Below, in pieces: positions 8-16,254 of a DNA stretch of 35,061 nucleotides. The notes beneath the pieces are model-generated. The model had not been told where the DNA came from. It did not search any database and saw only the letters and a list, made by a program, of their open reading frames with translations. Positions within the stretch are counted from its first letter, which is position 1; every line of letters starts with the position of its first letter. Position numbers and translations under genes: made by a program. The DNA comes from Eubacteriales bacterium (lineage in GTDB: Bacteria; Bacillota; Clostridia; Lachnospirales; Lachnospiraceae): assembly GCA_030533405.1 (NCBI GenBank), contig JAUNJF010000029.1, positions 1 through 35,061 on the forward strand, given 5' to 3'.

Positions 8-481
8 TCAATGTCGATATGCCCAAAACTTGTTAATAATAAAATTAATCGGAATTGTAAATATCAAGTTAATAAAAGGAGCAATTGATACTGCTAAATT
101 TTGCGGGCTCATGTTCATGCCTTTACTAAGCAGCCACTCGGATATCGGTTTCAGGTAAGTGGAAATATTAATTACATCCAACCACAACACCAAGAGGACT
201 TCGGTCAAAATGAGTCCGGTAAAAGCATAAGACACATATGTCTTCATTAAGACCTTCCACCATACACGATGCTCCGCATCTTCGTTTTCCTTAAAAACAA
301 ACCGACTCTGCATAACGTACGCAAATAGTACGCTTAAAATGAATCCCATGATATTACACACATGAACATTTGCATGTAACAAATAATAACATAAAGAGTA
401 CACTGTATACGAAACGAGTGTATTTCCAATACCCACTAATCCAAACTTAATAAACTGTATAAATGTTTTCTTTTGCTTCAT
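8..481 (-). CDS. GtrA-family membrane protein (putative polyprenyl-phosphate-sugar flippase)
   Basis: Small polytopic protein of 157 residues with about four hydrophobic segments (near 12-33, 37-57, 76-96 and 130-150) and basic ends. The N-terminal FxxFGLVGxxNT pattern and the SRFVF motif around 60 are typical of GtrA. GtrA proteins are thought to translocate a single polyprenyl-phosphate-linked sugar across the cytoplasmic membrane for side-branch addition. The ORF is complete, with its TGA stop at 8-10. It follows the CDP-glucose dehydratase by 11 nt, with AAGGA upstream. The partner would be the GtrB-like glycosyltransferase two genes upstream (1589-2551). Family assignment is solid; the sugar carried is inferred to be the CDP-derived sugar of this module. 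No outer-face transferase is visible before the window edge. Confidence 0.88.
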   Translation of the reverse strand: MKQKKTFIQFIKFGLVGIGNTLVSYTVYSLCYYLLHANVHVCNIMGFILSVLFAYVMQSRFVFKENEDAEHRVWWKVLMKTYVSYAFTGLILTEVLLVLWLDVINISTYLKPISEWLLSKGMNMSPQNLAVSIAPFINLIFTIPINFIINKFWAYRH

Positions 482-492
482 AATCAGTTTCC

Positions 493-1596
493 TTAATTAT
501 CTTGATGTAAAAAATCTTGAATCTGCTTTTCCATACAAGCGACAATGTCTTCCTTAGCCAAATAACACTTGGTCCATTCTATGATTTTTTTCATCGTTTC
601 TTCCATATGCCATGTTGTTGTCCATCCAAACACGGATTTAATTTTAGAACAATCCAGCTTTAAGAAGTTCGCTTCATGAGGACCACCGTCATACTGATTT
701 ACCCACTCTACAGTATATCCGTTATTACAATTACTCTCGTTCCACTCCTTACAGAACAAATCAACCAAATCTCCGGTTGTCCAACAATCCAAATCATCCG
801 GTCCGACATTATAGCTTCCGGCAAAAGAAATATCTTTATACTGTTCCTGCGCAATCATCAAATATGTAACAACCGGTTCGAGTACATGCTGATAAGGTCG
901 TGTAGAAAAAGGATTACGGACAATAATCTTTCTCTCCGCTTCCACAGCTCTCACACAATCCGGAACAATCCGGTCGTTTGCAAAATCACCACCACCAATT
1001 ACATTTCCCGCACGACATGTAGTAATGGCGATTTCACGTCCATCATCCATCTTACCGGTTTCTCCCCCAAAGAAAGAGTTCTTGTAACTGCTTGTGACAA
1101 GCTCGGAACAGGATTTAGAATTTGAATATGGATCAAATCCATTTAATTCTTCATTTTCACGATATCCCCACTGCCACTCTCTGTTCAAATATACTTTATC
1201 TGTTGTTACGTTCACAAAAGAACGAACCGAAGCAGTTTGTCTTATACATTCTAATACATTAACCGTTCCCATTACATTTGTCTCATAAGTGTATACCGGA
1301 TCCTTGTAAGAATCACGCACAATCGGCTGCGCTGCCATGTGAATGACAATCTCCGGCTGTGTTTCCTTGAACACCTTCATTAAATGATCAAGATCTCGAA
1401 TATCTCCCTCCACGGAGTTGATTTCTTCCCCAACTTTACAAAGTTCAAACAAACTCGGAGATGTCGGTGCGGGTAACGCATATCCTGTTACATCTGCGCC
1501 CAACATAACAAGCAGCTTGCACATCCAAGTACCTTTAAACCCTGTGTGCCCCGTCACTAATACTTTCTTACCCTTATAAAATGAACTATCAATCAT
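493..1596 (-). CDS. rfbG: CDP-glucose 4,6-dehydratase
   Basis: Short-chain dehydrogenase of 367 residues that converts CDP-D-glucose to CDP-4-dehydro-6-deoxy-D-glucose. The Rossmann motif GHTGFKG (16-22), the TTDKVY motif (131-136) and the catalytic pair Y157/K161 (YSNSK) are those of CDP-glucose dehydratases, and length is normal. I chose ATG at 1596 rather than 1623: homology begins just after it, AGGAG lies 7 nt upstream, and the longer start would add a non-conserved extension overlapping the previous gene by 35 nt. With this start the overlap with the GT2 gene is 8 nt. It is the second step of the CDP-sugar branch, between rfbF (9306-10088) and rfbH (7962-9302), though it sits at the far end of the module. 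Confidence 0.93.
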   Translation of the reverse strand: MIDSSFYKGKKVLVTGHTGFKGTWMCKLLVMLGADVTGYALPAPTSPSLFELCKVGEEINSVEGDIRDLDHLMKVFKETQPEIVIHMAAQPIVRDSYKDPVYTYETNVMGTVNVLECIRQTASVRSFVNVTTDKVYLNREWQWGYRENEELNGFDPYSNSKSCSELVTSSYKNSFFGGETGKMDDGREIAITTCRAGNVIGGGDFANDRIVPDCVRAVEAERKIIVRNPFSTRPYQHVLEPVVTYLMIAQEQYKDISFAGSYNVGPDDLDCWTTGDLVDLFCKEWNESNCNNGYTVEWVNQYDGGPHEANFLKLDCSKIKSVFGWTTTWHMEETMKKIIEWTKCYLAKEDIVACMEKQIQDFLHQDN

Positions 1597-2551
1597 TTCC
1601 CTGCTCCTCACTATCTTCTTCAAAATTTAATCGTTCTTCCTCGATTACAAGTGGTCTGTGCATCATACGTTTATTTATACTGAGCACATACTCTCCCAAG
1701 AACCCTATGAAGAACAACTGAACAGACCCCAGCACACAAACAGTGAGCAAAATCGGCGCAGTTCCCGCTGAAAAATTATCCCAGTAAATCAGTTTTAATA
1801 TCAAATATACTAAAGCAACAACCAGACTAAGCCCTGACATAATAAATCCCAAGATAGTTGCAATTCTTAAACCTGCCTTGGTATAAGAAGTGAAACTGAG
1901 CATTGCCGCATCATATAATGTCGCCCAGTTGTTATGCGTTTTGCCCGCCTTTCTCTTTTGCTGTTCGTACGGAATATCTACGCGCTTGTACCCAAGTTCA
2001 GCAACAATTCCTCGTAAAAAAGGAGTAGAATCATCCAAATTTCTCAGAACCTCTATAAAGCTCTTGTCATACAATCCAAAACCCGTAAAATGCTCAATTT
2101 GCTCTACATCTGACAATTTCTTAATCATTTTGTAATAACGGGTTCTTAAGAATCGCATAATTTTGTTTTCTTTGCTGGACGTCTTGATTGCGCATACGAT
2201 TTTTGCCCCATTCTCCCACTCTTTGACGAGCTTTGGAATCATCTCTACCGGGTCTTGGAAATCACAACAAAGGCAAATGGTACAATCACCGGTTGTCTGA
2301 CACATACCATAATACGGTGAATTAAACTGTCCAAAATTCTTTGCGTTAAAAATCGCACGTATTTTTTTATTCTCGTCACATAATTGTCTTAAATACATTC
2401 TGGTTTTGTCCTTAGAATCGTTATCTATGAACAATATCTCATAATCATACTCCGGCAAGCTGCGACCTAGTTCATCAATTACCGCATGACAGATTTCTCT
2501 TACATTTTCCTCCTCATTGTAACAAGGAATCATAATACTAATTTTCTTCAT
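1589..2551 (-). CDS. GtrB/DPM1-like polyprenyl-phosphate glycosyltransferase (GT2)
   Basis: 320 residues. An N-terminal GT2 domain starts with MIPCYNEEEN, followed by FIDNDSKD (41-48) and the DxD-region motif CCDFQDP (95-101). The conserved RKAGKTHNN element (200-208) is typical of DPM1/GtrB enzymes. Two C-terminal membrane segments (about 231-255 and 265-290) precede an acidic cytoplasmic tail. Such enzymes move one sugar from a nucleotide donor to undecaprenyl phosphate on the inner face. The gene overlaps the upstream SDR by 14 nt, with AGAGG 7 nt before its ATG, so translation is probably coupled. Its location between the CDP-sugar genes and GtrA suggests that the CDP-dideoxy or branched sugar is the donor. 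A second, distinct enzyme of this class lies at 18686-19642. Confidence 0.9.
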   Translation of the reverse strand: MKKISIMIPCYNEEENVREICHAVIDELGRSLPEYDYEILFIDNDSKDKTRMYLRQLCDENKKIRAIFNAKNFGQFNSPYYGMCQTTGDCTICLCCDFQDPVEMIPKLVKEWENGAKIVCAIKTSSKENKIMRFLRTRYYKMIKKLSDVEQIEHFTGFGLYDKSFIEVLRNLDDSTPFLRGIVAELGYKRVDIPYEQQKRKAGKTHNNWATLYDAAMLSFTSYTKAGLRIATILGFIMSGLSLVVALVYLILKLIYWDNFSAGTAPILLTVCVLGSVQLFFIGFLGEYVLSINKRMMHRPLVIEEERLNFEEDSEEQGND

Positions 2552-3470
2552 TGGCTAACCTCTTTTTTATCCATTCTATCGTTTCAAAAATACCCTCTTC
2601 AAACGAAAAACCTGGTTGAAAGTTTGTATCCTTTTGCAATTTTTCTATATCCGCCCACAAATACATTACCTGCTTATCTGCATACGGAATCTCACCGAAT
2701 CCAAGCTTCATTGTCGGATCAATTGCATCTCTTATGGTCTCTATGTATTTACGAAGCGGCATGAAAGAACCACTACCCAAGCAATATATGCCTCGCGCAT
2801 TCTCGCAGCTTCCCAACAAAAGCAAAGCTTTTCCCGCATCTTTTGAATACAGATAATCCCACTTCTGTTCTCCGTATGTCAAAGCCGGAATTTCACCCTG
2901 CAGCAGCTTTTTGATTGTTGTCGAAATCATAGTATTATCATTGTCATATGGACCATATACACTGAGCACCCGAGCCCAGACGAATCGCATACCCAACTGC
3001 TCACATACCACAGCACTCATCTGTCCCGCACAAAGCTTTGCCATGCCATATCCATTTTCAGGAAATGTAGGTACTTTTTCGTTTAGTTTTCCTTCATATC
3101 TTCCATACTCTGCCTGCGACCCAACACCAATAAATGCTTTACAACCCAATCGATGCGCAAGATGAATCGCATCCAGCGTATACTGAATATTCTTAAGCTG
3201 CATCTGCATATCATTTCGCCCGGCACCCATGGTTGCCGCCCAACCCAAATGAAAAAATGCATCACAAGGCTTTATATTGTCAGCATCAAATATAATAATT
3301 TCATCTAAATCACAGTCAATTAAATGAAGCAATTTGTGCTTGGGGATTCGTGCATTTCGTTTTGAGTTCTTATGAACAAGCGCATACACCTCAATCTCAT
3401 TTTCGATACACGCCTCTATTAATGCAATTCCTATTGCCCCCGTCACTCCGGTAATAGCTACTCGTTTCAT
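2538..3470 (-). CDS. NAD(P)-dependent epimerase/dehydratase (SDR), candidate final reductase of the CDP-sugar
   Basis: Extended SDR of 310 residues with GVTGAIG (8-14), Ser118 in GVGSQAEYG and Tyr141/Lys145 (YGMAK). It lacks the TDE/TDK signature of sugar 4,6-dehydratases, so reduction or epimerisation is more likely than dehydration. ATG at 3470 begins at the Rossmann motif; a TTG at 3476 is the alternative. It lies 12 nt after the kinase gene and 14 nt overlaps the GtrB-like gene. In the Yersinia yersiniose pathway an SDR-type reductase (YerF) reduces the keto group left after the ThDP enzyme adds the two-carbon branch. This gene is the best candidate in the module for that step, which is inference from context. 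Reduction at C4 of an unbranched dideoxy sugar is the alternative. Confidence 0.82.
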   Translation of the reverse strand: MKRVAITGVTGAIGIALIEACIENEIEVYALVHKNSKRNARIPKHKLLHLIDCDLDEIIIFDADNIKPCDAFFHLGWAATMGAGRNDMQMQLKNIQYTLDAIHLAHRLGCKAFIGVGSQAEYGRYEGKLNEKVPTFPENGYGMAKLCAGQMSAVVCEQLGMRFVWARVLSVYGPYDNDNTMISTTIKKLLQGEIPALTYGEQKWDYLYSKDAGKALLLLGSCENARGIYCLGSGSFMPLRKYIETIRDAIDPTMKLGFGEIPYADKQVMYLWADIEKLQKDTNFQPGFSFEEGIFETIEWIKKRLANEEN

Positions 3471-3482
3471 AAACAATTCATC

Positions 3483-4505
3483 CTATCTCTGTACTCTTCC
3501 AGATGCATCGCCACCTGCCAGCTTTTCAACCTCCGCAACCGACACTCTGTTAAAATCACCCTCAATTGAGTGCTTTAATGCAGAAGCTGCCACAGCAAAT
3601 TCAATCGTATCCTGCATCGACTTTTGTTTCATCAATGAATAAATCAATCCGGCTCCAAAACTGTCTCCGCCACCGACCCGGTCAACAATATGCAAATGAT
3701 ATTCCTTTGAAAAATATGCTTTCTGTCCATCATATAACATGGCGGCCCAATCATTATCATTTGCCGATAAAGAAGTCCGAAGTGTGATTGCAACCTTTTC
3801 AAAACCAAATCGATCAATCAACTGTTTTGCAACCGAAACATAACCATCTTTGTTCAATTTTCCATGTGTGATATCCGTATTCTCCGCCTGAATTCCAAAG
3901 ACATCCTTTGCATCTTCCTCATTTGCAATGCACACATCCACATACTGACACAAATCGGTCATAACACTTCCTGCCTTTTCACGGCTCCACAGCTTTCCAC
4001 GATAATTTAAATCACAAGAGACCTTAACACCTTTCTTTTTTGCGGTAATACACGCCTGTTTACAGACTTCCGCCAATCCATCTCCAAGTGCCGGTGTAAT
4101 ACCTGTAAAATGAAACCACTCCGCACCATCAAAAATGGCATCCCAATCAAAATCCTCCTGCGTAGCCTCAGCAATTGACGAGCCCACGCGATCATAAATA
4201 CAAACACTGCCTCTCTGACTGGCTCCCTTTTCAAGATAATAAATACCGATTCGATTACCGCCGCGCACAATCTTTGATACATCTACACCAAAGGAGCGCA
4301 GAGTATCGACTGCAGCCTGTCCGATTGCATGTTCCGGAAGCTTCGTCACATACACGGATTCTGTACCAAAATTTGCAAGAGAAACCGCAACGTTCGCTTC
4401 TCCGCCACCAAATGTAGCCTGCATCTGATCCTGTTGAAAAAATCTATAATATCCGTTTGGTGCCAAACGAAGCATGATCTCACCAAATGTAACAACCTTT
4501 CCCAT
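3483..4505 (-). CDS. PfkB-family sugar kinase, 2-keto-3-deoxygluconate kinase-like
   Basis: Ribokinase/PfkB-family kinase of 340 residues. It opens with the GEIMLRLAP motif shared with 2-dehydro-3-deoxygluconokinases, has the substrate-side glycine run TFGGGEANVA (31-40), and ends with the anion-hole/catalytic GGGDSFGAG motif (Asp281). The start is clear, with GGAGG 8 nt before ATG. It sits 3 nt after the aldolase gene and 12 nt before the SDR, inside a nucleotide-sugar cluster where a catabolic KDG kinase would be out of place. I infer that it acts on a 2-keto-3-deoxy acid or similar intermediate linked to the aldolase or ThDP enzyme. The exact substrate cannot be read from sequence. Confidence 0.85.
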   Translation of the reverse strand: MGKVVTFGEIMLRLAPNGYYRFFQQDQMQATFGGGEANVAVSLANFGTESVYVTKLPEHAIGQAAVDTLRSFGVDVSKIVRGGNRIGIYYLEKGASQRGSVCIYDRVGSSIAEATQEDFDWDAIFDGAEWFHFTGITPALGDGLAEVCKQACITAKKKGVKVSCDLNYRGKLWSREKAGSVMTDLCQYVDVCIANEEDAKDVFGIQAENTDITHGKLNKDGYVSVAKQLIDRFGFEKVAITLRTSLSANDNDWAAMLYDGQKAYFSKEYHLHIVDRVGGGDSFGAGLIYSLMKQKSMQDTIEFAVAASALKHSIEGDFNRVSVAEVEKLAGGDASGRVQR

Positions 4506-4508
4506 CGC

Positions 4509-6095
4509 TTATTCCTCCATCGATTTCTCATAAATAGATGGTGTTAAAAACCGTATCTTCATAACCTCATTAATTGCATGCAACTCCTTTGCAATTAGAT
4601 GATTACGCTTCTCCGCCACACTTGAAAAATCAAATTCCAAATTACTGTCATAATAATTAACACGTTGCTGTCCGGAATAACCGTCCATTCCGGCAATCGC
4701 AACACGCTTAACACCGAGATCAATCAAAAGTTTCAGAAGCATTACACCGGAATTATCAATGATGTCAATATCCTTTGATGCATAACTGGAAAAATTGACA
4801 ATATAATCGGCTTTTCTGTAATCCTTCATATTGGATGTGATAATACATTTGGCAGATGTTTTACCCTGAATCTTCGCATATCTTCGCATATTACTGCTAA
4901 ACACATAATCCGGTTTATATTCACCACCATCAAAGTTTAGTGCAATTACAATCGGTGCGCATTCCGCAATATATTTTTCAATACAATCTCTATTATCCAT
5001 CAGACTTCTTCCCGGTCCGAGTATCAAAATCTCCCGATCTGAAATATCAGACATAAGTTTCGATAAGGTTTCCCGATCATCAATAAAATTTTCCTGATAA
5101 TCTCGATAATACTTCTCCGCCTTGTCCTTGGAGAATTTTGCCTTGTCCTCTTTCGGAATGCCGTTTAACAATTCATTAAACGCCTTTACAGACAGCGTAT
5201 CCTTCTCCGCAAGATAAATCGCATAATTCGGATGGCACCCTGTACTTGCTGAAAGATACAATGGAAGTGAATATCCCCAAAAACGTTTCTGATAGATATC
5301 GTTCAAGTACTCATCCATGATTTCCAGCATCGGTTCAATCCGATATTTGGTATCATAATTCTCATTCATGTACTCCGCAAACAATTCCAGATTTAAATTT
5401 CCGGCACCTCGCCCCATGCCAAACACACAAGCATCGATGCAAAGGTCACGTTTTAAGTTCATCTCCACTAATGACTCTGCATTACCAAATGCCTGCTGTA
5501 AATTATTATGTGCATGATATCCAAGCGTTACCCCCGGTGCCAAATTATTATCAGCCAAGTACACCAATCGCATAAAATGCTTTCTCTTAATAAGACCAAA
5601 ACTGTCAACAATCGCCATAGCGAAAGGATTTAAGCGATTGAATTTTTGAATTCCCTCTACAAATTCCGTATCGGAATACATATCCGTTCCGACAAAATTG
5701 ACCGAAATCTTATACCCTAAATTTTGAACATACTGACAATAATCATATGCTTCATCGATCTTATCCTTTTTAAAAATGACACGAATAATATCAAGACAGC
5801 TTCCGTCACAGCGCGGTATCCGTTCTTTCGGAAGCGGTGCACTCATATCGACCATGCCGACATACTGCATCTGCTTATCTTTCGGACAAATCATCATCTT
5901 TAAAGATTCAAAATCAGGAAAAACCGCCCGATCCTCGTCAAATGTATCTCCCTTTAAGAATCCAACCTCAAACATCTCTACACCGGTCTTTGCAAGCTTA
6001 TGTCCAAATCCTTTAATTGTATCCTTACCAAATCTCCAATCATTTACATATCCACCGTCACGTAAAGTACAGTCCAATAGGTAAACTCGTCCCAT
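4509..6095 (-). CDS. HMGL/DRE-TIM aldolase fused to a Rossmann-like C-terminal domain
   Basis: 528 residues in two parts. Residues 1 to about 290 form an HMGL-like TIM barrel with the DCTLRDGG signature (8-15; Asp8 metal ligand), the metal-binding HxH (His194, His196 in GYHAHNN) and GMGRGAGN (226-233). This is the family of 4-hydroxy-2-oxovalerate aldolase, HMG-CoA lyase and isopropylmalate synthase. Residues about 350-528 form a separate alpha/beta domain beginning ILILGPGRS, with IALNF, PDYVFS and AIAGMDGY strands. It resembles the DUF115/MAF-type Rossmann fold, which is a tentative match. AGGAG precedes the ATG. It lies between the ThDP enzyme and the kinase, suggesting it makes or splits a 2-oxo acid used by them. 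Aldolase fold is confident; substrate and C-domain role are unknown. Confidence 0.83.
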   Translation of the reverse strand: MGRVYLLDCTLRDGGYVNDWRFGKDTIKGFGHKLAKTGVEMFEVGFLKGDTFDEDRAVFPDFESLKMMICPKDKQMQYVGMVDMSAPLPKERIPRCDGSCLDIIRVIFKKDKIDEAYDYCQYVQNLGYKISVNFVGTDMYSDTEFVEGIQKFNRLNPFAMAIVDSFGLIKRKHFMRLVYLADNNLAPGVTLGYHAHNNLQQAFGNAESLVEMNLKRDLCIDACVFGMGRGAGNLNLELFAEYMNENYDTKYRIEPMLEIMDEYLNDIYQKRFWGYSLPLYLSASTGCHPNYAIYLAEKDTLSVKAFNELLNGIPKEDKAKFSKDKAEKYYRDYQENFIDDRETLSKLMSDISDREILILGPGRSLMDNRDCIEKYIAECAPIVIALNFDGGEYKPDYVFSSNMRRYAKIQGKTSAKCIITSNMKDYRKADYIVNFSSYASKDIDIIDNSGVMLLKLLIDLGVKRVAIAGMDGYSGQQRVNYYDSNLEFDFSSVAEKRNHLIAKELHAINEVMKIRFLTPSIYEKSMEE

Positions 6096-6113
6096 GTTTT
6101 CTCTCCTACTTGA

Positions 6114-7946
6114 TTATTGTTCGTCCAACAATGGAATAAACATCTGTTTTTTCAGTTCTTCTCTTGGCAAAAACGGGGCCAAATCCTCTAGCGGAGGGCT
6201 GACTAAGGTTCCATCTTCCAAACGCTTTGTACTGCTCTTTGGTTCCCAGACTTGCTTTGTATCCGTAAATATCTCACAAAAAACAGGTCCCTCCGTTTGA
6301 AGTACTTCATCAACGACCTTCATCATTTCCTTGTTACTGTGCGCACTGTAGTAAGGATAACCAAAAGCCTTTGCAATCTTCTCAAATTCCGGGAACGACA
6401 AATCTCCGGATTCCTCACCAATACCAACCTTACAATGATCATGAAACAGATTATTCTGTGTTAATCGAATCGAATGATATCCGTTATTGTTAATTAAAAA
6501 CAACTTAATCGGAAGCTTATTTGTAAGAATTGTCTGCAGCTCCTGCAGATTCATCATAATACTTCCATCACCCTCAAGGCAGATAGTCGTTTTTCTTCCG
6601 CCGCCAATACAGGTTCCAATCGCAGCAGGAAGACCATATCCCATACTTGCAACTGCACTGTTATTTGCCATGCGACTACCCTTTTGAATCACGTATGCCT
6701 GGTTACCAACTACGCAACACGCACCATTTGATACTGCAGTCAAGCTGTTTTCCGGAAGTTTGCTACTCAAATATCTGATAAATGCATACACATTCGCTGT
6801 TTCACCATTTTCAATCCATTGTCTTGGAACTACAGCCGGATATTCCTTCTTCCAACGCTCGCATGTAGCATTCCACTCATCCGTTTCACGAAGCTTTTCC
6901 GGCAACATCGCATCCATTTTTGTAAGGAAATCCTTCGCATCTGCCCATATCGGCATTTCTACATGCAACGTTGGTTTCTTAAGCTCTGCCTGATCGACAT
7001 CTACCATAATAACTTCTGCCGCACGCGCCCATGTTTTCCAATTGTAACCAACCTGACGAATCGAGATTCTTGTTCCTACCGCCAAAATTAAATCTGCATT
7101 CTGAATCGCCCAGTTGCCCGGACGGTCTCCCATATTTCCTGCCCGACCACAATAAAGCGGGTGCTCATCTTCAATCAAATCCACAGCATTCCAATACGTT
7201 ACGACCGGTATATTCAGCTTTTCAGCCACTTTTCGGAACTCATCATAACCACCTGACAAGCGGATTCCGTATCCTGCATGAAAAACAGGTCTTTTGGCAT
7301 TCTTGATTTTTTCCAATACTATACGAATCGTAGTTTCATCAACAGCAGGCGGAAGCTTTGCATCATCCTCCGTCGGATCATAACCCTCCAACTCATCCGT
7401 CTCAATATACCCACCTTGATAATTTACCGGAATATCAATCCATACAGGTCCGGGTCTTCCCGTCGTAGCAAGATGCCACGCCTTTTCCAACGCATAACGA
7501 ATCTGCTTAGGCTCTTCAATCATAACTGCATATTTTGTCATATTCTCAACAGACTTTACAATATCATATTCCTGATCTCCCATCGCACGAAGCGGTGTCT
7601 CTGTATATTGCAGTGCGTACCTTGCTGTTGTATCATAACGAACCTGACCACTTATGATAAACATCGGAATCGAATCTAACCATCCTCCTACAACACCGGT
7701 TAATGCATTGGTTCCACCCGGTCCTGTCGTCACGCATACTGCAGCAATTCGATTGTCCAATCTTGCATATGCTTCTGCCGCAATCGCACACGCCTGCTCA
7801 TGATGGTTATATGTGACCTTCAGACCCTCTTTATGACCAAGTGCATCGTTTAGGTGCATCGCACCACCACCTACTACACTAAAACAATCTGTTACCCCAT
7901 GCGCTACCAAAAAATCCGCAACATAATCTGCTAATCTCTGTTTCAT
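6114..7946 (-). CDS. ThDP-dependent acetolactate synthase-like enzyme (YerE-like C-C ligase)
   Basis: 610 residues with the three-domain layout of the acetolactate synthase/pyruvate oxidase family: Pyr domain with catalytic Glu50 (YNHHEQACAIAAEAYAR), central domain around 200-340, and PP domain with the ThDP/Mg motif GDGS (459-462) through NNN (486-488). AGGAGG lies 6 nt before ATG. No regulatory subunit or branched-chain amino acid genes are nearby, and the gene is next to rfbH, so housekeeping acetolactate synthase is unlikely. YerE of Yersinia pseudotuberculosis, a known member of this family, adds an activated acetyl group from pyruvate to CDP-4-keto-3,6-dideoxyglucose. I infer the same kind of reaction here. 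The adjacent aldolase and kinase raise the possibility of a donor other than pyruvate. Confidence 0.87.
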   Translation of the reverse strand: MKQRLADYVADFLVAHGVTDCFSVVGGGAMHLNDALGHKEGLKVTYNHHEQACAIAAEAYARLDNRIAAVCVTTGPGGTNALTGVVGGWLDSIPMFIISGQVRYDTTARYALQYTETPLRAMGDQEYDIVKSVENMTKYAVMIEEPKQIRYALEKAWHLATTGRPGPVWIDIPVNYQGGYIETDELEGYDPTEDDAKLPPAVDETTIRIVLEKIKNAKRPVFHAGYGIRLSGGYDEFRKVAEKLNIPVVTYWNAVDLIEDEHPLYCGRAGNMGDRPGNWAIQNADLILAVGTRISIRQVGYNWKTWARAAEVIMVDVDQAELKKPTLHVEMPIWADAKDFLTKMDAMLPEKLRETDEWNATCERWKKEYPAVVPRQWIENGETANVYAFIRYLSSKLPENSLTAVSNGACCVVGNQAYVIQKGSRMANNSAVASMGYGLPAAIGTCIGGGRKTTICLEGDGSIMMNLQELQTILTNKLPIKLFLINNNGYHSIRLTQNNLFHDHCKVGIGEESGDLSFPEFEKIAKAFGYPYYSAHSNKEMMKVVDEVLQTEGPVFCEIFTDTKQVWEPKSSTKRLEDGTLVSPPLEDLAPFLPREELKKQMFIPLLDEQ

Positions 7947-7961
7947 GAGAATCCTCCTACA

Positions 7962-9302
7962 TTACATCCCGACTGACTCTCGAATAATCTGAGCCATATA
8001 ATCAATCATCTCATCTGTCATACCCGGATATACTCCTAACCAGAAAGTATCATTCATAATACGATCGGTATTCTTCAGATCACCAACGATACGATATCCT
8101 TCACCGGATGCTCGCATCTGATCGAAGCAAGGATGTTTTGTGAGATTACCGGCAAAGAGCATTCTTGTCTGAATTCCGTGTCCTTCGATATAAGACACTA
8201 CGTCCTTTCTATCAACGCCCTCCTTACATGTAATCAAGAAACCAAACCAGCTTGGCTTTGAATTCTCGCATGGTTCCGGAAGAATCAGCTTGCCCTCACA
8301 ACCTGCAAGTGCACGCTTCAATCTATCAAAGTTATGTCTACGTTTCTCAACAAATCCCGGAAATTTCACAATCTGGGCACATCCGATAGCAGCCTGCATA
8401 TCCGTTGCCTTAAGGTTATATCCAAAATGTGAATAAACATACTTGTGATCATATCCAAGCGGAAGCTCTCCGTACTGACGATCAAATCTGTGACCACACA
8501 AATTGTCTTGTCCGGATGCACAAATGCAATCTCTTCCCCAATCACGGAAAGAACGAATACACTTATGAAGTAATGGATTGTTTGTATACACAGCACCACC
8601 CTCACCCATAGTCATATGGTGTGGCGGATAGAAGGAAGACGTTCCAATATCTCCGATTGTACCTGAAAACTTCTCTTCTCCATCGAGTGTATAGGTTGTT
8701 CCAAGTGCATCACAGTTATCCTCAATCAGCCACAAATTGTGCTTGTCACAGAATTCCTTAACTGCTTTTAAATCAAAAGGATTACCCAATGTATGAGCAG
8801 CCATAACAACCTTTGTCTTTGGAGACAACGCAGCCTCTAACTGTGTAATATCCATATTGTACTGTGGAATCGTTACATCGATAAATACCGGTACAACCCC
8901 ATACTGAATTGCAGGAGTTACGGTCGTAGGGAAACCTGCAGCTACCGTAATCATCTCATCACCGGGTTTAACCTGTCTATCTCCCAAAAGAGGAGAAGTA
9001 AGTGCCATAAATGCATTCAAATTGGCGGATGAACCTGAATTTACCAACGAACAATATTTCACACCGAGATACTCTGCAAACTTCTTCTCAAACTCTGCTG
9101 TATATCGACCGGATGTCAACCAAAACTCCAATGCCGAATCCACAAGATTGCACATTTCCTCATGATCATAAACACGTGAAGCGTATGTAATGCGGTCACC
9201 CGGCTCAAATGGCTTTTTCTGATTGTGAAAAGTATCACAATACTCCGCAACCATACTTAATATTTCTTTTTTTGCCTGTTCTTCTGATTTATTTTCAAAC
9301 AT
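7962..9302 (-). CDS. rfbH: CDP-4-dehydro-6-deoxyglucose 3-dehydrase (E1)
   Basis: 446 residues of the DegT/DnrJ/EryC1 fold. The PLP lysine is replaced by histidine in SFYPPHHMTMGEGG (His228), the hallmark of the PMP-dependent E1 dehydrase. The [2Fe-2S] ligands known from Yersinia E1 (C-X57-C-X1-C-X7-C) are present as Cys197, Cys259, Cys261 and Cys269. A four-residue insertion after Cys197 makes the first gap X61. A fifth, non-ligand cysteine that I recall in the Yersinia enzyme is Gln here (CASGQDNLC). It removes the C3 hydroxyl of CDP-4-keto-6-deoxyglucose, on the way to 3,6-dideoxyhexoses. Its partner reductase E3 (DdhD/AscD) is not in the window. GGAGG lies 11 nt before ATG, and the rfbF stop is 3 nt upstream. 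Confidence 0.94.
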   Translation of the reverse strand: MFENKSEEQAKKEILSMVAEYCDTFHNQKKPFEPGDRITYASRVYDHEEMCNLVDSALEFWLTSGRYTAEFEKKFAEYLGVKYCSLVNSGSSANLNAFMALTSPLLGDRQVKPGDEMITVAAGFPTTVTPAIQYGVVPVFIDVTIPQYNMDITQLEAALSPKTKVVMAAHTLGNPFDLKAVKEFCDKHNLWLIEDNCDALGTTYTLDGEEKFSGTIGDIGTSSFYPPHHMTMGEGGAVYTNNPLLHKCIRSFRDWGRDCICASGQDNLCGHRFDRQYGELPLGYDHKYVYSHFGYNLKATDMQAAIGCAQIVKFPGFVEKRRHNFDRLKRALAGCEGKLILPEPCENSKPSWFGFLITCKEGVDRKDVVSYIEGHGIQTRMLFAGNLTKHPCFDQMRASGEGYRIVGDLKNTDRIMNDTFWLGVYPGMTDEMIDYMAQIIRESVGM

Positions 9303-9305
9303 TCT

Positions 9306-10088
9306 CTATGATTCCTCCCACTTCTTCCAAGGTGCTTTGTTCTTTGTCAACAAATGTTCTAATATATCCTTTTCTCTCTTTGTATCCATACATTGCCAGA
9401 ACCCTTTGTGAGAATACGACATCAACTGTCCCTCTTCTGCCAGTTTTTCCAAAGGTCCTTTTTCAAAAACAGTTTCATCTCCATCAATATAATCAAATAT
9501 CTCCGGATTTAATACCATATAGCCTGCATTAATCGGTGCGCCATCCACTGCACTCTTTTCTCGAAAGGAATGCACTGCATTATCACCACCAATGTCTAAC
9601 ACGCCTTTTGCCTGCTCCAACAATACAGAAGTCAAGGTTGCAATCTTACCATGCTGCTCATGGAACTGTACGAGCTTTGATATATCGACATCACACACAC
9701 CGTCTCCATAAGTCATCAGAAATGGCTCATTTCCTATATACGGCTGAATTCTCTTTATTCTGCCACCGGTCATGGTGTTTAGACCTGTGTCGACTACCGT
9801 TACCTTCCATGGCTCTGAATACTGATTGTGAACAATCATCTTATTACCTTGCGTAAAATCAAAGGTAATATCTGATGTGTGTAAGAAATAATCGGCAAAC
9901 CATTCCTTGATTACATGCTGCTTATATCCGGCACAGATTACAAACTCATTGTACCCATAATAGGAATACTCTTTCATTATGTGCCACAAAATCGGCTTGC
10001 CACCAATTTCAATCATCGGTTTTGGTTTGTATTCTGATTCCTCAGAAATACGGGTACCAAATCCACCTGCTAAAATTACTACCTTCAT
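9306..10088 (-). CDS. rfbF: Glucose-1-phosphate cytidylyltransferase
   Basis: 260-residue nucleotidyltransferase starting MKVVILAGGFGTRISEES, with the KPKPMIEIGGKPILWHIM motif of the CTP-specific RfbF family and YGDGVCDVDI carrying the metal-binding aspartate. It makes CDP-glucose from glucose 1-phosphate and CTP, the entry to the module below it. I place the start at ATG 10088, where homology begins, with AAGGAGG 5 nt upstream. A longer reading from TTG at 10115, behind GAGGAG, would add nine unconserved residues. It is the first gene after the ATPase/nuclease-like island, separated from it by 63 nt with no convincing hairpin. Its glucose 1-phosphate could come from the phosphoglucomutase at 13304-15064. 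Confidence 0.94.
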   Translation of the reverse strand: MKVVILAGGFGTRISEESEYKPKPMIEIGGKPILWHIMKEYSYYGYNEFVICAGYKQHVIKEWFADYFLHTSDITFDFTQGNKMIVHNQYSEPWKVTVVDTGLNTMTGGRIKRIQPYIGNEPFLMTYGDGVCDVDISKLVQFHEQHGKIATLTSVLLEQAKGVLDIGGDNAVHSFREKSAVDGAPINAGYMVLNPEIFDYIDGDETVFEKGPLEKLAEEGQLMSYSHKGFWQCMDTKREKDILEHLLTKNKAPWKKWEES

Positions 10089-10093
10089 TTTAT

Positions 10094-10100
10094 CCTCCTT
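10094..10100 (-). promoter_or_regulatory. Ribosome binding site of rfbF
   Basis: AAGGAGG on the minus strand, 5 nt before ATG at 10088. It decides the rfbF start in favour of 10088 over the TTG at 10115. Confidence 0.75.
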
Positions 10101-10151
10101 GTTTATTCCATACAATTTTCTCCTCTTGGCAAAAAAACATTCCCATCAACA

Positions 10152-10814
10152 TCAATCAGTATCCTTAAACACAAGATCTGTAAACATTTTGGGAAAAGCA
10201 ATTTCACACCCTCTTGAATTGTAACATGTAATTGTGTATGGGGCATGCGCTGAACAATTGACTTTTTTTGTTTTTCTCGGCTGAATACAGAAAAATAACG
10301 AATATATATCTTTTATTTTACTTCTTTGCAGACTATGTTTCATCAATCTTTGACATAATTGCTTTATATCAGGTCTCATAAAGCTCGGCAGCGTTTTATC
10401 CGGAGAACCAACCACCAGGCAAAATACCAAATCTCTTTTTTTCAAATATTTAGCAGCATCCGGATATTTTCCCTCATCCAACAAAAAGCTGATTGTATCC
10501 ATTATTTGATCAATCGCGTGTTTTGCTACCTGTTCAACCTTTGTACCTTTTAATTCAACCAACCATGTAATTTTTATGCCATCCTTTTTCATAGGCATAC
10601 TATATATTAAATTATCACAAATAAATTTACCTTCCGGAATATCAGCGATAAGTCCCTTATCTATCTTGACGATTTCCAAATTATATCCATTACTTACCGC
10701 AACAGGCAATAACGCCTTGCTCTCGGTTTCATCATCCTTGAGCACAAACGTTTCGCCTTGCGATATTATTTGGGAAATCTCTTCATGAAAAACACCCTTA
10801 CCCTTTTTTGCCAT
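10152..10814 (-). CDS. Hypothetical protein, possible PD-(D/E)xK nuclease-like effector paired with the upstream ATPase
   Basis: 220 residues, not a family I can name. A Glu-Glu near the N-terminus (11-12), then Asp67 (CDNLI) and about 20 residues later Glu87-Leu-Lys89 (WLVELKG) followed by a helix (VEQVAKHAIDQI) match the core of PD-(D/E)xK nucleases: acidic helix, D, ExK, helix. The C-terminal third is basic and cysteine-containing (Cys187, Cys197, Cys203), without a clear zinc motif. There is no signal peptide or membrane segment. The gene starts 2 nt after the ATPase stop, with GAGGA inside the ATPase 3' end, so translation is coupled. An ATPase plus small nuclease unit recalls antiphage systems. 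Function is inferred from motif and pairing only; a non-catalytic DNA-binding partner is equally possible. Confidence 0.6.
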   Translation of the reverse strand: MAKKGKGVFHEEISQIISQGETFVLKDDETESKALLPVAVSNGYNLEIVKIDKGLIADIPEGKFICDNLIYSMPMKKDGIKITWLVELKGTKVEQVAKHAIDQIMDTISFLLDEGKYPDAAKYLKKRDLVFCLVVGSPDKTLPSFMRPDIKQLCQRLMKHSLQRSKIKDIYSLFFCIQPRKTKKVNCSAHAPYTITCYNSRGCEIAFPKMFTDLVFKDTD

Positions 10815-10816
10815 AG

Positions 10817-12175
10817 CTAATCCTCGTTTGCATAATCCAATTCAATATTATACAGCTTCGTATATGTTTCATTAAATTCTTGAGATATTTCATCAATTTT
10901 GTATGAACAAATTTCTCTGGCTTCATCATCAAACAGATTTTCCAATTGTGCATTATTTTCATGTTGAATTTTATATGCAGATAAAGCTCCATAATGAATC
11001 ATTTTATATCTACCTATTATTTTTTCTATCTCACTCTCAATTTGTTGTTTTTCCTGGCATAACACACCTGCATAATATGCGTTATTTACCGCATTTAAAA
11101 CATACGGACTATGCGTAGTGAGCAACACTTTACTCTCATTTAAATTTGCAAACATGATAATTAATTCTACTATTTTCTTTTGCAAAGACGGATAAATATG
11201 TGCCTCCGGCTCTTCAATAATCACAAACGCTTTTTCTTTCCGCAAAATAAGAACATACAAATAATTAATCAGCCACAGAATTTCCTGCTGACCGGATGAT
11301 GCAAAATTGATTTCGATTTTGCCATTATTATTCGTTTTATCGTCAATGAGCAAATATTCCTCTCCGTTTTCAAAGAAATATTCCCCATGCAACATCTCAA
11401 TTATTTCAGCAATCAAATATTGCATATTATATTTTCTTTTTCCATCCGGATAATACTTATGCGCAGAAGAAAGCCCTTCTTTAAAATATCCACGAATATT
11501 ATCAATAATCTGCATAAATTGTTCTGTTATTAAATCCATATTCTTCCCGGCTGTCATAATTAACGATTTACTATTTGCCATAGTTGTTAATAGACTTCTG
11601 CCCGCAGGAATATAATACGTCTCTTCTTCATCATTAAAAATTTCATTTACGCTTTTCTTTATGATTTCATGATTTCGAATACGTTCTGCAGTCGCAAATG
11701 CAATGCTCGTTATTGTTTTTGCAGATGCTTCTGATATTTTTCTAACTTGTCCTTCCAGTTCACGAATAGCATAATTTAATTTTTTACTAAATCGAACACT
11801 TAAGTATTTTTTTTGTCCGTTTTTTAACGCAACATCAATCCAAATATCATCTGAAAAATGATATTTGAGATACATATCATCCTTTAAATCCCAGCTTTTC
11901 CCAAACAGTCGAACAAAAATATCCTTGAATTGTCCCTTTAATACCTTAACGCATCTCACATCTTTATTCACATTGTTGATATTGGAAATAGATATGCCAT
12001 CACTTAACTGACATAAATAATCAATGACATTTGTTTTTATCAATCGAAAGAAATATATCCCCTTTGCAATCGTACTTTTTCCGGTAGCCTGCTCGCCAAT
12101 TAAAAGATTAATACGATTGATATCCATATGAATCTCCTTAATTGGACCAAGATTTTTAATATATATATTTTGCAT
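10817..12175 (-). CDS. AAA_15/OLD-type ABC-fold ATPase (candidate defence sensor)
   Basis: 452 residues with SMC/RecF-style ATPase motifs: Walker A GEQATGKST (27-35), an ABC-like signature SSGQQE (293-298), Walker B FVIIEEPEAH (317-326) and switch histidine His355 in TTHSPYVLN. YIPAGRS (188-194) is a motif seen in the predicted ATPases of COG1106/COG4938 type. A central helical insertion spans about 130-290. It ends in a charged C-terminus without a TOPRIM domain, so it is not a full OLD nuclease. ATG at 12175 is chosen because the conserved strand starts there and GAGGAGG lies 7 nt upstream; a start at 12232 would add a hydrophobic, unconserved extension. It forms a bicistronic unit with 10152-10814. 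Related ATPases act in PARIS, Septu and similar systems; a DNA-repair role cannot be excluded. Confidence 0.83.
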   Translation of the reverse strand: MQNIYIKNLGPIKEIHMDINRINLLIGEQATGKSTIAKGIYFFRLIKTNVIDYLCQLSDGISISNINNVNKDVRCVKVLKGQFKDIFVRLFGKSWDLKDDMYLKYHFSDDIWIDVALKNGQKKYLSVRFSKKLNYAIRELEGQVRKISEASAKTITSIAFATAERIRNHEIIKKSVNEIFNDEEETYYIPAGRSLLTTMANSKSLIMTAGKNMDLITEQFMQIIDNIRGYFKEGLSSAHKYYPDGKRKYNMQYLIAEIIEMLHGEYFFENGEEYLLIDDKTNNNGKIEINFASSGQQEILWLINYLYVLILRKEKAFVIIEEPEAHIYPSLQKKIVELIIMFANLNESKVLLTTHSPYVLNAVNNAYYAGVLCQEKQQIESEIEKIIGRYKMIHYGALSAYKIQHENNAQLENLFDDEAREICSYKIDEISQEFNETYTKLYNIELDYANED

Positions 12176-12182
12176 CAAACTG

Positions 12183-12189
12183 CCTCCTC
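12183..12189 (-). promoter_or_regulatory. Ribosome binding site of the AAA ATPase gene
   Basis: GAGGAGG on the minus strand, 7 nt before ATG at 12175. It supports the shorter ATPase start rather than 12232. Confidence 0.7.
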
Positions 12190-12303
12190 GTTTTACACTA
12201 CATAATAATATTACAAATATTGTTGTTTTCATCTATTTGGAGAATACCACAACTATATAAAAATAGGAAGTACAGTTCTTTCCAAAATCATCGTTTCTCA
12301 TAA

Positions 12304-13303: not shown

Positions 13304-15064
13304 TTACATCGCATCAACAACAGCTTTCATCTCAATAAGTTTTTTCTCTGCCGCCTTCATACTTACTTCATTTACACCAAAATAGTACTTAATCTTCGGC
13401 TCCGTGCCGGAAGGACGAACCGCCATCCATGCATCGTTTTCAAGCTCATAATATAAAACATTTGATTTTGGCAATCCCGTCTTTGTCTCAGTCCCTGTTG
13501 CAAGCTCAAGCCTCGTATCTGCAGAATAATCACGAATCGCAACGACCGGAATTCCCGCTACCTCATTCAGAGGATTCGCACGAAGATTATCCATAATTGC
13601 CTGAATCTGCTTAGCACCATCCACACCCTTTAGTGTAACAGACTTTGCACCCTCAAAATAATATCCGTACTTTTTATACATATCATTCATCGCATCACAA
13701 AGAGTCTCTCCCTTGTTTGCACAATATGCAGCTACCTCACACAGAATAACAACTGCACCACAGGCATCCTTGTCTCTTGTATAGTCGCCAACCAAACAGC
13801 CAAAGCTCTCTTCCATGCCATACACATACTTGTAGGTATTCTGCTCCTCGAAGAACTTAATCTGCTCTCCGATATATTTAAACCCGGTCAGTGTCTCGAT
13901 AAATTTCAAATCATACGCATCTGCAATCGCCTTCGCAAGATTTGATGTTACAATCGTACTGCAAATTGCACCATTTTCCGGAAGTGTGCCATTTGCCTGC
14001 TTCTCACGACACACATACTCTCCCATCAATGCACCGGTCATATTCGCATTAAAACGAACATACGGATAATCCGGTGTATTTGCAAGTTCGGTATCTGCAA
14101 ATGTATGATTGGTATCCTTTACATAGATTCCGAGTCGGTCCGCATCCGGATCGGTTGCAAGCACAATATCCGCATCCTTCTCCTTCGCAAGTGCAAGTGA
14201 AAGCGCAAAACCATCCGGATTCTCCGGATTCGGTGATTTTACGGTTGGAAAATTACCATCCGGCAACTCCTGTTCCTTCACTACATACACATTTACAAAC
14301 CCAAGACGCTTCAACACCTCCTGGACAGGAACATTTCCGGTTCCATGAAGTGGTGTATACACAATCTTCAACGAATCTGTTACTTTTTCAATAACTTCCG
14401 GATGGATAACCTGTTCAATCAATTCTACATAGTAGTCTTCATCCACCGATGTAGGAACCATATTGTACAGCCCTTTTTCTACAGCATCTTCATAAGCCAT
14501 AGTAAGTACCTGATCATAACCTTCTACCTTTGCAACATGCGCCAAGATATTCTTATCATGTGGTGGCGTAATCTGTCCACCATCCTCCCAATAAACTTTA
14601 TAACCATTATATTCCGGTGGGTTATGGCTTGCCGTAATTACAACTCCTGCCACACAGCCAAGTTTTCTTACCGCATAAGATAGTTCCGGCGTCGGGCGCA
14701 AAGAATCAAAGATATATGTCTTGATTCCGTTCGCATTCAGACAAAGTGCGGTTGCCTTGGCAAACTCAGGGGACATTCTTCTTGAGTCAAATGCTACTGC
14801 AACCCCCTGATTTTTGGCCTTATCGCCAAGTTCACTAATATAGTTTGCAAGCCCTTGTGTTGCCTTCGTAACCGTATAAACATTCATACGGTTTGTTCCG
14901 GCACCAATCACACCGCGAAGTCCTCCTGTACCGAACTTCAACTCTCTGTAAAAACGGTCTTCGATTTCTTTTTCATCTTGCGCAATCGCGCGAAGTTCCT
15001 GCTTGGTTGCCTCGTCAAAATACGGTGCATCAAGCCAGAACTGATAATTTTCCTGATACGTCAT
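13304..15064 (-). CDS. Phosphoglucomutase/phosphomannomutase (alpha-D-phosphohexomutase)
   Basis: 586 residues, the long PgcA/PGM2-like form common in Firmicutes. Motifs in order: FGTGGLRG (44-51), phosphoserine loop TASHNPPEYNGYK (Ser146), the metal-binding ATDPDADRLG, the sugar-specificity loop GMEESFG and the phosphate-binding RPSGTEPK near the C-terminus. It interconverts glucose 6-phosphate and glucose 1-phosphate, feeding rfbF (CDP-glucose) and probably the UDP/dTDP-sugar routes. It lies directly after the hairpin at 15127-15168, so it probably has its own promoter in the 60 nt between. A TATTAT hexamer is present there, but I see no good -35, so I do not call one. A weak GAGG precedes the ATG. 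Confidence 0.95.
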   Translation of the reverse strand: MTYQENYQFWLDAPYFDEATKQELRAIAQDEKEIEDRFYRELKFGTGGLRGVIGAGTNRMNVYTVTKATQGLANYISELGDKAKNQGVAVAFDSRRMSPEFAKATALCLNANGIKTYIFDSLRPTPELSYAVRKLGCVAGVVITASHNPPEYNGYKVYWEDGGQITPPHDKNILAHVAKVEGYDQVLTMAYEDAVEKGLYNMVPTSVDEDYYVELIEQVIHPEVIEKVTDSLKIVYTPLHGTGNVPVQEVLKRLGFVNVYVVKEQELPDGNFPTVKSPNPENPDGFALSLALAKEKDADIVLATDPDADRLGIYVKDTNHTFADTELANTPDYPYVRFNANMTGALMGEYVCREKQANGTLPENGAICSTIVTSNLAKAIADAYDLKFIETLTGFKYIGEQIKFFEEQNTYKYVYGMEESFGCLVGDYTRDKDACGAVVILCEVAAYCANKGETLCDAMNDMYKKYGYYFEGAKSVTLKGVDGAKQIQAIMDNLRANPLNEVAGIPVVAIRDYSADTRLELATGTETKTGLPKSNVLYYELENDAWMAVRPSGTEPKIKYYFGVNEVSMKAAEKKLIEMKAVVDAM

Positions 15065-15176: not shown

Positions 15177-16226
15177 CTATATTGAAACATTTACAACCAC
15201 ATTATTTTTCGCTGATTCAAAGGCAGCTTCTACAATTTTCATCTGTCTCAAAATCTGCGTTGTGGTTACATATGGCTGTTCTACTCCCTCTGCCGCTTTT
15301 AACAGATTGTCCCAATAACATAATGTCATATCAGCTTCTTCAGGAATATTAATTTGTTCAATATGTTCCGGCTGTAATGGTGCCATGGTCCTGCTTGGGC
15401 CTAATACCTTCTGTCCTACTACACTGTCAAAGCCTTTTACTTCTCCCTTAATGCGTGCGACCCCGCCAATCTTTCCTGAAAAATCATCCAGCTTCATAGT
15501 GCCTCTATCACCAAACACAAACCATCTAGGAAGCTTCTGTAATGCAAATGTGCTAACAGACACTTTTGCACATACACCATTGCTTAACATCATTGTAATT
15601 TCAAAGAAGTCATCTACCGCAGGAGTCAGAACACTCAATATACGTGCATATACACTCGTTACTACCTCTGAACTATACAATTGCAGGATTTGGTCTATTA
15701 AATGAACGCCCCAATCATATAGCATTCCGCCGCCCGATTCCGGATCGGCACGCCAGCCAAAGCAAACCCCTCTTTCGCCAAAGACTCTCGATTCTATCGT
15801 AGTAATCTTTCCAATTTTGCCGCTTCTTACTACATCGCAAACCGCCCTGAAATCTGGATCCCATCTTCTCTGCTGATGAACCGTAAAGAATTTTCCTGTT
15901 TCTTCCGAACACTTGATAATGTTCTCCATTTCAGCAACTGACATCGTTGCCGGCTTTTCACACATAACATTTTTTCCTGCCTTCATCGATGCAAGCGCAT
16001 ATTTCTCATGCCACTGATTCGGCGTAGCAATCACAACCAAATCAATATCTGCACATAAAAATTCTTCTAAAGTAGAATAAATGTCCAACCCTTTTTCACG
16101 TGCATCCTCCAGTTTGTCCTTATCCGTATCAAATGCACATACCACTTTTGCATTGTCAAAGTGTGATACCTTTTCAAAATGGAAATGACCCATGTACCCA
16201 AATCCAATAATTCCAATTTTAACCAT
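15177..16226 (-). CDS. Gfo/Idh/MocA-family sugar oxidoreductase
   Basis: 349 residues. N-terminal Rossmann motif GFGYMG, the MCEKPATMS motif (catalytic lysine of the family), and GGGMLYDWGVHLID supplying the active-site Asp/His. These NAD(P)-dependent enzymes oxidise or reduce a hydroxyl of a free or nucleotide-linked sugar. GGAGG lies 6 nt before ATG. It follows an aminotransferase and a hexapeptide acetyltransferase. With those it could form a 3-keto, 3-amino, 3-N-acetyl route like WlbA/WlbC/WlbB, but the GGG...H element is more like generic members than like WlbA. The other oxidoreductase at 22805-23785 looks closer to WlbA. Substrate unassigned. Confidence 0.87.
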   Translation of the reverse strand: MVKIGIIGFGYMGHFHFEKVSHFDNAKVVCAFDTDKDKLEDAREKGLDIYSTLEEFLCADIDLVVIATPNQWHEKYALASMKAGKNVMCEKPATMSVAEMENIIKCSEETGKFFTVHQQRRWDPDFRAVCDVVRSGKIGKITTIESRVFGERGVCFGWRADPESGGGMLYDWGVHLIDQILQLYSSEVVTSVYARILSVLTPAVDDFFEITMMLSNGVCAKVSVSTFALQKLPRWFVFGDRGTMKLDDFSGKIGGVARIKGEVKGFDSVVGQKVLGPSRTMAPLQPEHIEQINIPEEADMTLCYWDNLLKAAEGVEQPYVTTTQILRQMKIVEAAFESAKNNVVVNVSI

Positions 16227-16254
16227 AATTTTCCTCCGTAGTATATATATTCAC

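Follow-up and report, generated by a model that had tools for sequence, protein, structure and literature searches.

A gut-bacterial operon joining a YerE-like thiamine diphosphate enzyme to a fused aldolase and a 2-keto-3-deoxygluconate-type kinase: a candidate source of a long-branched CDP-3,6-dideoxyhexose

We analysed a stretch of 35 061 nucleotides from a Lachnospiraceae genome (Eubacteriales bacterium; assembly GCA_030533405.1, contig JAUNJF010000029.1), called the window from here on. Positions 8 to 10115 hold an operon of this gut bacterium whose nine genes follow one another head to tail, all on the minus strand. They encode, in order, RfbF, RfbH, a thiamine diphosphate (ThDP) enzyme, a fused aldolase, a 2-keto-3-deoxygluconate (KDG)-type kinase, a short-chain dehydrogenase/reductase (SDR), GtrB, RfbG and GtrA (Table 1), and neighbouring genes overlap or are spaced by at most 18 bp. 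Since the order of the first eight genes recurs in a congeneric genome (G015, locus L259) and at locus L144, the operon is not a chance assembly. It is quite possible, if short of probable, that it makes a cytidine diphosphate (CDP)-activated 3,6-dideoxyhexose with a long C-4 branch, by way of KDG or its 6-phosphate (KDPG) made by the aldolase.

A previous reading of the letters alone (the sequence-only reading) had described a branched 3,6-dideoxy sugar module made of RfbF, RfbG, RfbH, the ThDP enzyme, the SDR, GtrB and GtrA. All seven genes are present at or near the positions it gave, GtrA lying just outside its interval of 493–10088. Its gene list was thus right, but lacked two genes of the same interval, the HMGL-like aldolase fusion and the PfkB kinase. 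The internal ATG at 10088 is likely the true start of RfbF. GtrB is also matched by the PgfS and undecaprenyl-phosphate transferase models, both below cut-off.

Table 1. Genes of the operon, and a phosphoglucomutase gene apart from it, in window coordinates
Gene product	Position	Strand	Evidence
GtrA-like membrane protein, flippase candidate	8..481	-	PF04138 4.8e-18
RfbG, CDP-glucose 4,6-dehydratase	493..1623	-	TIGR02622 438.3 bits, cut-off 278.45
GtrB-like glycosyltransferase family 2 (GT2) polyprenyl-phosphate glycosyltransferase	1589..2551	-	PF00535 1.2e-23
SDR, NAD-dependent epimerase/dehydratase family, presumed branch-ketone reductase	2538..3476	-	PF01370 3e-35
PfkB kinase, KDG kinase type	3483..4505	-	2afb 391.3 bits, residues 3-340
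Fused aldolase: HMGL/DmpG-like + sialyltransferase/MptE-fold domain	4509..6095	-	
YerE-like ThDP carboligase, JanthE group	6114..7946	-	8rph (JanthE) 1.5e-127, 38.5% identity over 592 columns
RfbH (E1), CDP-4-keto-6-deoxyglucose 3-dehydrase	7962..9302	-	PRK15407 717 bits, cut-off 423
RfbF, glucose-1-phosphate cytidylyltransferase	9306..10115	-	TIGR02623 371.7 bits, cut-off 300.25
Phosphoglucomutase/phosphomannomutase, possible glucose-1-phosphate source, apart from operon	13304..15064	-	PF02878-PF02880

The dideoxyhexose core and its tie to the ThDP enzyme

RfbF, RfbG and RfbH all score above curated equivalog cut-offs, which identifies the CDP-3,6-dideoxyhexose pathway and bears out what had been claimed for these three genes. 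In the motif YPPHHMTMGEGG of RfbH, as read in the sequence, His replaces the aminotransferase Lys.

The distribution of RfbH follows that of the ThDP enzyme. Of 194 related genomes, 48 have the ThDP enzyme (E 1e-90 or better), 56 have RfbH (E 1e-110 or better) and 44 have both (Fisher P = 9e-28), i.e. RfbH is present in 44/48 genomes with the ThDP enzyme versus 12/146 without it. The ThDP proteins of the four genomes lacking RfbH (G004, G005, G023 and G027) have an identity of 36–41%. We also analysed the best 80 of 582 genome loci (L144–L223; ThDP enzyme identity at least 67%), many of whose stretches end at contig ends. RfbH was found in 52 of them, the SDR in 46, GtrB in 33 and RfbF, RfbG and RfbH together in 32; 21 loci have the fused aldolase and 6 have the kinase. 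In four loci (L196, L198, L201 and L202) the order is ThDP-RfbG-RfbF-RfbF-RfbH instead, the two RfbF-like proteins being distant (40–50% identity).

A second operon is found in the same genome on contig C59 (L227, 3046–10833), where RfbG, RfbH, GtrB, a 273-residue HMGL protein, a ThDP enzyme (42% identical to that of the window), an SDR and RfbF stand in a row. Since this operon is complete, the organism probably makes two differently branched CDP-sugars. For the SDR of the window, no close characterised relative was found, its matches in PDB and NCBIfam being weak.

The ThDP enzyme and its pocket residues

The best solved relatives of the ThDP enzyme are 8rph (429.8 bits), then IlvB (231.8 bits) and 5ahk (225.5 bits, 27.8% identity), the last of which we take to be PpYerE. 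The motifs of the window enzyme are intact, as had been noted: E50 is present, and GDG at 459–461 is followed, as read from the sequence, by 24 residues and N, that is GDG(X)24N. The acetohydroxyacid synthase (AHAS) model gives 325.3 bits, below its cut-off of 538.35. JanthE, the viral relatives and the window enzyme form one group in a rapidly built maximum-likelihood tree, which leaves the acetolactate synthases and 5ahk outside that group (SH-aLRT 99–100); the value is 100 for 5ahk, which is the lone such row and sits on a long branch. The tree was built from 108 representatives of 195 aligned rows, with a program warning of long branches; the alignment took in ThDP matches spanning more than 90% of the query in open reading frames (ORFs) shorter than 720 residues, with duplicate loci removed.

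The phylogeny that had been suggested as a check thus places the protein, in agreement with the family scores, outside the IlvB/acetolactate synthase clade. A housekeeping acetolactate synthase was rejected on the scores (AHAS below cut-off, JanthE above IlvB) and on the tree; a likely enzyme of that kind, 28% identical, is encoded elsewhere, on contig C53. Pyruvate oxidase and other decarboxylases were all weaker matches among the 60 rows listed. Among named phages (7 records) and plasmids (15 records), searched at E 1e-60, no ThDP match exceeded 30.7% identity, and the matches that carry an annotation are named acetolactate synthase, ilvB or ilvG. As the sequence-only reading had stated, there is no branched-chain amino acid gene nearby, none being found among the 29 window proteins scanned; a KARI_N match (21 bits) on a Gfo/Idh oxidoreductase was dismissed, as it looks like a shared Rossmann fold. 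These comparisons support a YerE-like branching enzyme, outside acetolactate synthase.

The structure 8rph is given as that of JanthE (PMC12188165). Its chain carries V121, Y268, P293, Y297, M406, C458 and K567 of the published numbering at an offset of one. The column of V121 holds Asp124 in the window enzyme and Asp in all 80 genome loci; elsewhere it holds Phe in three acetolactate synthase rows and in 5ahk, and Met in the second ThDP enzyme of the same genome. Arg297 was considered as a binder of a donor phosphate and dropped, the corresponding P293 of JanthE being linked to FAD (PMC12188165) and Arg being found in 5ahk and two AHAS rows as well.

YerE-like ThDP genes are frequent on contigs classed as viral, 80 of which (L034–L113, kept from 109 confirmed) supply the viral relatives. 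Within three genes of the ThDP gene, an aldolase- or NeuB-type gene was found in 61/80 of them and none in 19; neighbours were listed by a longest-ORF gene choice, so that some may be missed. The neighbour types are DmpF plus DmpG (19 contigs), PanB (17), NeuB (15), HpaI/HpcH (7) and HMGL (3), and many of these contigs are near-copies, so that the independent cases are fewer. In a scan of single representatives for six of the types, NCBIfam cut-offs were passed by DmpF, DmpG and PanB, whereas HpaI, HpcH and NeuB passed those of Pfam only. The V121 column holds Asp in 13/15 NeuB-linked loci and V, I or T in DmpFG- and PanB-linked ones. The Cys of the CDG motif of JanthE is present in 19/19 DmpFG-linked viral enzymes, but also in nine without such a neighbour. 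JanthE's neighbours in the tree (L052, L068, L069 and L072) are all DmpFG-linked, and its natural donor may therefore be 4-hydroxy-2-oxovalerate. Proteins near the ThDP gene of L085 and L091 look phage-structural in our reading of the sequence.

Kinase, fused aldolase and the supply of the donor

The PfkB protein is identified as a KDG kinase by its full-length match to 2afb and by its nesting among kinases of uronate clusters (L228, L258). In a tree of 39 rows, which include one half-length outlier (L203) and one duplicate, it groups with the kinases of L229, L144, L147, L160 and L156, all beside a ThDP gene, in a set with SH-aLRT 99 that also includes one kinase from a pectin/uronate cluster (L230/L258, whose other genes were named by reading). 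The kinases of L163 and L213, which also stand beside a ThDP gene, were placed elsewhere, with weak support, and this suggests that they were recruited separately. The window's own genome has a 68% identical kinase paralogue in an apparent hexuronate operon with Eda (L228).

The N-terminal part of the fused aldolase (about residues 1–276, fold to about 324) is an HMGL/DmpG-like pyruvate aldolase, and the C-terminal part (about residues 345–528) is a domain of sialyltransferase/MptE fold. The PF00682 fold with its metal-binding Asp and HxH places the protein in the HMGL-like pyruvate aldolase superfamily. DmpG models are the best named matches, but identity as DmpG (4-hydroxy-2-oxovalerate aldolase) was rejected because TIGR03217 gives 62.2 bits, far below its cut-off of 286, and PF07836 finds no DmpG communication domain in the protein. 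The C-terminal domain was modelled alone, and a whole-protein Foldseek search gave no clear match to it among the rows listed. Pfam MptE-like matches are weak and occur in 9/21 members (best 3.4e-4); the domain may hold a cytidine nucleotide. In another stretch (L261, 7246–9458), a 38% identical fused aldolase is followed by a HAD-like protein and, downstream, by one resembling phosphonopyruvate decarboxylase (names by our reading); no ThDP relative was found in that stretch.

The distribution of Eda, the KDPG aldolase, bears on the donor. We compared 79 genomes with a window-type ThDP enzyme (the locus set without the L201 genome), counting Eda by PF01081 over cut-off, the fused aldolase at 54% identity or more and KDG kinase at E 1e-70. 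Eda is present in 54 genomes and the fused aldolase in 22, and the two tend to exclude each other: Eda occurs in 5/22 genomes with the aldolase versus 49/57 without it (P = 1.8e-7), and KDG kinase in 8/22 versus 40/57 (P = 0.0095). Of the 17 genomes that have the aldolase but lack Eda, four carry a KDG kinase, always at the ThDP locus (L144, L147, L156 and L160). The aldolase requires at least 16 changes on the ThDP tree, and 16 independent pairs on that tree, most of whose branches are not well supported, are on average opposite in 11.4 cases, same in 0.2 and tied in 4.4. By taxon, the association has P = 0.0024 in Lachnospiraceae, P = 0.010 in unplaced Clostridia and P = 1.0 in Oscillospiraceae; stratified over these three largest taxon groups (64/79 genomes), it gives P = 2e-4. 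Among the related genomes, 22 have a ThDP enzyme of at least 54% identity (our own cut), and 19/20 of those without a close aldolase have Eda versus 93/172 of the rest (P = 2e-4). The exception among the 20, G111, has an aldolase of 37–38% identity beside its ThDP gene. A related substitution is seen in L163, where the order is ThDP enzyme, Eda-type aldolase (PF01081, 125.6 bits) and kinase, Eda taking the place of the fused aldolase; a fused aldolase of 39% identity is encoded on a different contig of that genome.

Because aldolase and Eda are complementary in this way, the ThDP enzyme would appear to need a KDPG-type acid from one or the other. Together with the KDG kinase, the complementarity points to KDG or KDPG as donor and to a C4 branch of up to five carbons. 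A donor other than pyruvate is probable in our judgement; that it is KDG or KDPG in particular is a nearly even matter.

Proposed route, competing explanations and known systems

In the proposed route, RfbF, RfbG and RfbH would produce CDP-4-keto-3,6-dideoxyglucose. The fused aldolase would join pyruvate to glyceraldehyde or its 3-phosphate, giving KDG or KDPG, and the kinase would convert KDG to KDPG. Decarboxylation of the sugar acid by the ThDP enzyme would leave a five-carbon acyl unit, which the enzyme would attach at the C-4 ketone. The SDR would reduce the branch ketone, and GtrB/GtrA would transfer the sugar to polyprenyl phosphate, from which it would be added to the polysaccharide exported by the window's Wzm/Wzt system. 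Carboligation to a ketone and a preference for 4-hydroxy-2-oxo acids are thus predictions for the ThDP enzyme. Family membership, operon structure, co-occurrence with RfbH and complementarity with Eda are drawn from sequence; donor, branch length, reductase role and glycan are what we infer.

Several observations weigh against this route. When only well-supported branches are used, four pairs remain (2.9 opposite, 0.1 same and 1.1 tied). The genome of the window encodes Eda and another KDG kinase in addition to the fused aldolase, which is therefore not the sole source of KDPG here. Neither a close aldolase nor Eda is found in 8/79 genomes, six of which also lack KDG kinase; some assemblies are small (1.3–1.4 Mb) and probably incomplete. 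One of the eight, G202 (L152), encodes an aldolase of 35% identity next to the ThDP enzyme; the genomes of L196 and L198 (G246 and G248) lack close aldolase, Eda and KDG kinase. Uronate degraders may also differ in other ways, and the Eda result has to be read with that in mind. The kinase is present at 6/80 loci only, and no Rfb gene was found in the stretch of L163. The pocket residue has exceptions: HMGL-linked L034–L036 have Phe, HpcH-linked L039 has Asp and two NeuB-linked enzymes have Gln. No Fer2 reductase of RfbI/E3 type, as electron partner of RfbH, is found in the operon, and PF00111 gave no match at E 0.001 in the whole assembly (G000, 95.8% complete), although RfbH is present there twice; a control search was positive in 12/14 genomes. 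Finally, a HAD-IIA phosphatase stands beside or near the aldolase in 5/80 loci (L148, L200, L207, L209 and L210; one representative scanned), and L161, L165 and L168 have another HAD-type protein after or near the ThDP gene and no aldolase; in L260, a HAD-like protein lies between aldolase and ThDP enzyme. Such a phosphatase opposes the kinase, which the route can accommodate only if the phosphate comes off at another step: with KDPG as donor it would act on the branched product, and with free KDG the kinase would be unexplained.

Two other donors would preserve a branched product. The donor could be pyruvate, as in the yersiniose route, giving a two-carbon branch, with aldolase and kinase supplying pyruvate by splitting KDPG or serving an unrelated purpose. 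YerE takes pyruvate on the same acceptor (review PMC12247030), the SDR directly follows the ThDP enzyme with neither aldolase nor kinase between them in 26/80 loci (our count), and KDG kinase and aldolase together might also serve KDG breakdown where Eda is absent. However, the enzyme groups with JanthE and not with the lone presumed YerE row, 5ahk, and has lost the Phe of the V121 column, a dedicated aldolase would not be required for pyruvate, and the complementarity with Eda is unexplained if the donor is a central metabolite; we regard this route as unlikely. The other possibility retains the long branch but changes the acid, the aldolase joining pyruvate to glycolaldehyde, lactaldehyde, acetaldehyde or the like, free or phosphorylated, and the kinase acting on the product. 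ErwE and JanthE take such acids (PMC12247030, PMC12188165), HAD-type phosphatases rather than kinases accompany the aldolase in the five HAD-IIA loci and L260, and the aldolase's best named matches, if below cut-off, are to DmpG. Its kinase, though, is a close KDG kinase whose clade reaches into a pectin/uronate cluster, the aldolase is complementary to the KDPG aldolase itself, and the operon has no acetaldehyde dehydrogenase, so this too has only a small chance of being right.

In a further alternative, the ThDP enzyme would not act on the CDP-sugar and the operon would make an ordinary unbranched 3,6-dideoxyhexose. RfbH (at least 55% identity) was not found in 28/80 locus stretches, many of which end at contig ends, but the genome-wide co-occurrence of the two proteins, and the two separate complete operons of this genome, each with its own ThDP enzyme, make this reading very improbable. 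A branched CDP-dideoxyhexose is thus a highly probable product. The branched module with a YerE-like enzyme proposed in the sequence-only reading is supported by family scores, the tree and the tie to RfbH. Its direct match to YerE and YerF is weakened by the grouping with JanthE, by Asp in place of Phe and by an aldolase and a KDG kinase superfluous to a pyruvate route; the SDR, with its weak database matches, is no more than a candidate for the YerF step, and yersiniose is a less likely product.

Beyond the proposed KDG/KDPG route, we put forward, as doubtful, a wider reading in which (i) the YerE-like branch of gut Clostridia transfers a five-carbon sugar chain from KDG or KDPG to C-4 of CDP-4-keto-3,6-dideoxyglucose, giving an eleven-carbon branched sugar, with a modular donor supply, (ii) uronate-catabolising cells would use Eda and KDG kinase and others would carry the dedicated fused aldolase, and (iii) residue 121 would tell donors apart, Asp versus V, I, T or F at this JanthE position separating sugar-acid from short donors with some exceptions, viral members included. 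The linkage of ThDP clades to particular aldolases, together with the complementarity of fused aldolase and Eda, offers a means of predicting the donor from the genomic surroundings and a single active-site residue. If the reading is right, an unusually long-branched surface sugar of many gut Lachnospiraceae could be tested for directly, and ketone-accepting carboligases that take polyhydroxylated donors would come within reach.

Further genes were noted in the window. A Wzm/Wzt-type ATP-binding cassette (ABC) exporter with a Wzt_C domain (31037–33315) points to ABC-dependent polysaccharide export, and a 1573-residue protein (25314–30035) combines FrhB/FdhB-like, pyruvyltransferase, GT2 and GT1 domains. 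Two DegT aminotransferases, two Gfo/Idh oxidoreductases, a hexapeptide transferase and a formyltransferase (15177–23830) possibly contribute a sugar with an N-formyl or acetamido group to that same polysaccharide. Between phosphoglucomutase and RfbF (10152–12232), in DNA of lower GC, an AAA_15 ATPase and an unassigned 220-residue protein may represent a defence-like gene pair that was inserted.

Longer-branched sugars made by YerE-like enzymes (erwiniose, caryophyllose) are already known, as are these enzymes and long-chain donors for them (PMC12247030); beyond that review, an open-access literature search found no KDG or KDPG donor, fused aldolase or Eda complementarity for branched sugars. 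JanthE, from Janthinobacterium sp. HH01, accepts long 2-oxo acids, including 4-hydroxy-2-oxovalerate in vitro with benzaldehyde as acceptor, and its physiological substrates are described as still to be identified (PMC12188165). The window enzyme is of the same decarboxylase type and keeps Y297 and K567, but has GDG for CDG, Asp for V121, Met for Y268, Arg for P293 and Asn for M406. JanthE sits with viral relatives linked to DmpF/DmpG, whereas the window enzyme sits with relatives from Clostridia that have Eda or the fused aldolase. The fused aldolase itself differs from DmpG in lacking a DmpF partner and a DmpG_comm match and in its extra C-terminal domain; it differs from Eda in Pfam family, the overall reaction proposed being the same. 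With the yersiniose A pathway of Yersinia pseudotuberculosis, and with YerE of Pseudomonas protegens, which has been crystallised (PMC8541089), the operon shares the RfbFGH acceptor route and a ThDP branching enzyme, but its enzyme lacks Phe at the pocket position and it adds an aldolase and a kinase. ErwE of Pectobacterium atrosepticum (erwiniose) shares the CDP-4-keto-3,6-dideoxyglucose acceptor and hydroxylated 2-oxo acid donors, with a preference for functionalised acids such as 4-hydroxy-2-oxo acids (PMC12247030). The enzymes of erwiniose, caryophyllose and gastriose are likened here by description; if the proposed KDG/KDPG route is true, the window locus works like ErwE.

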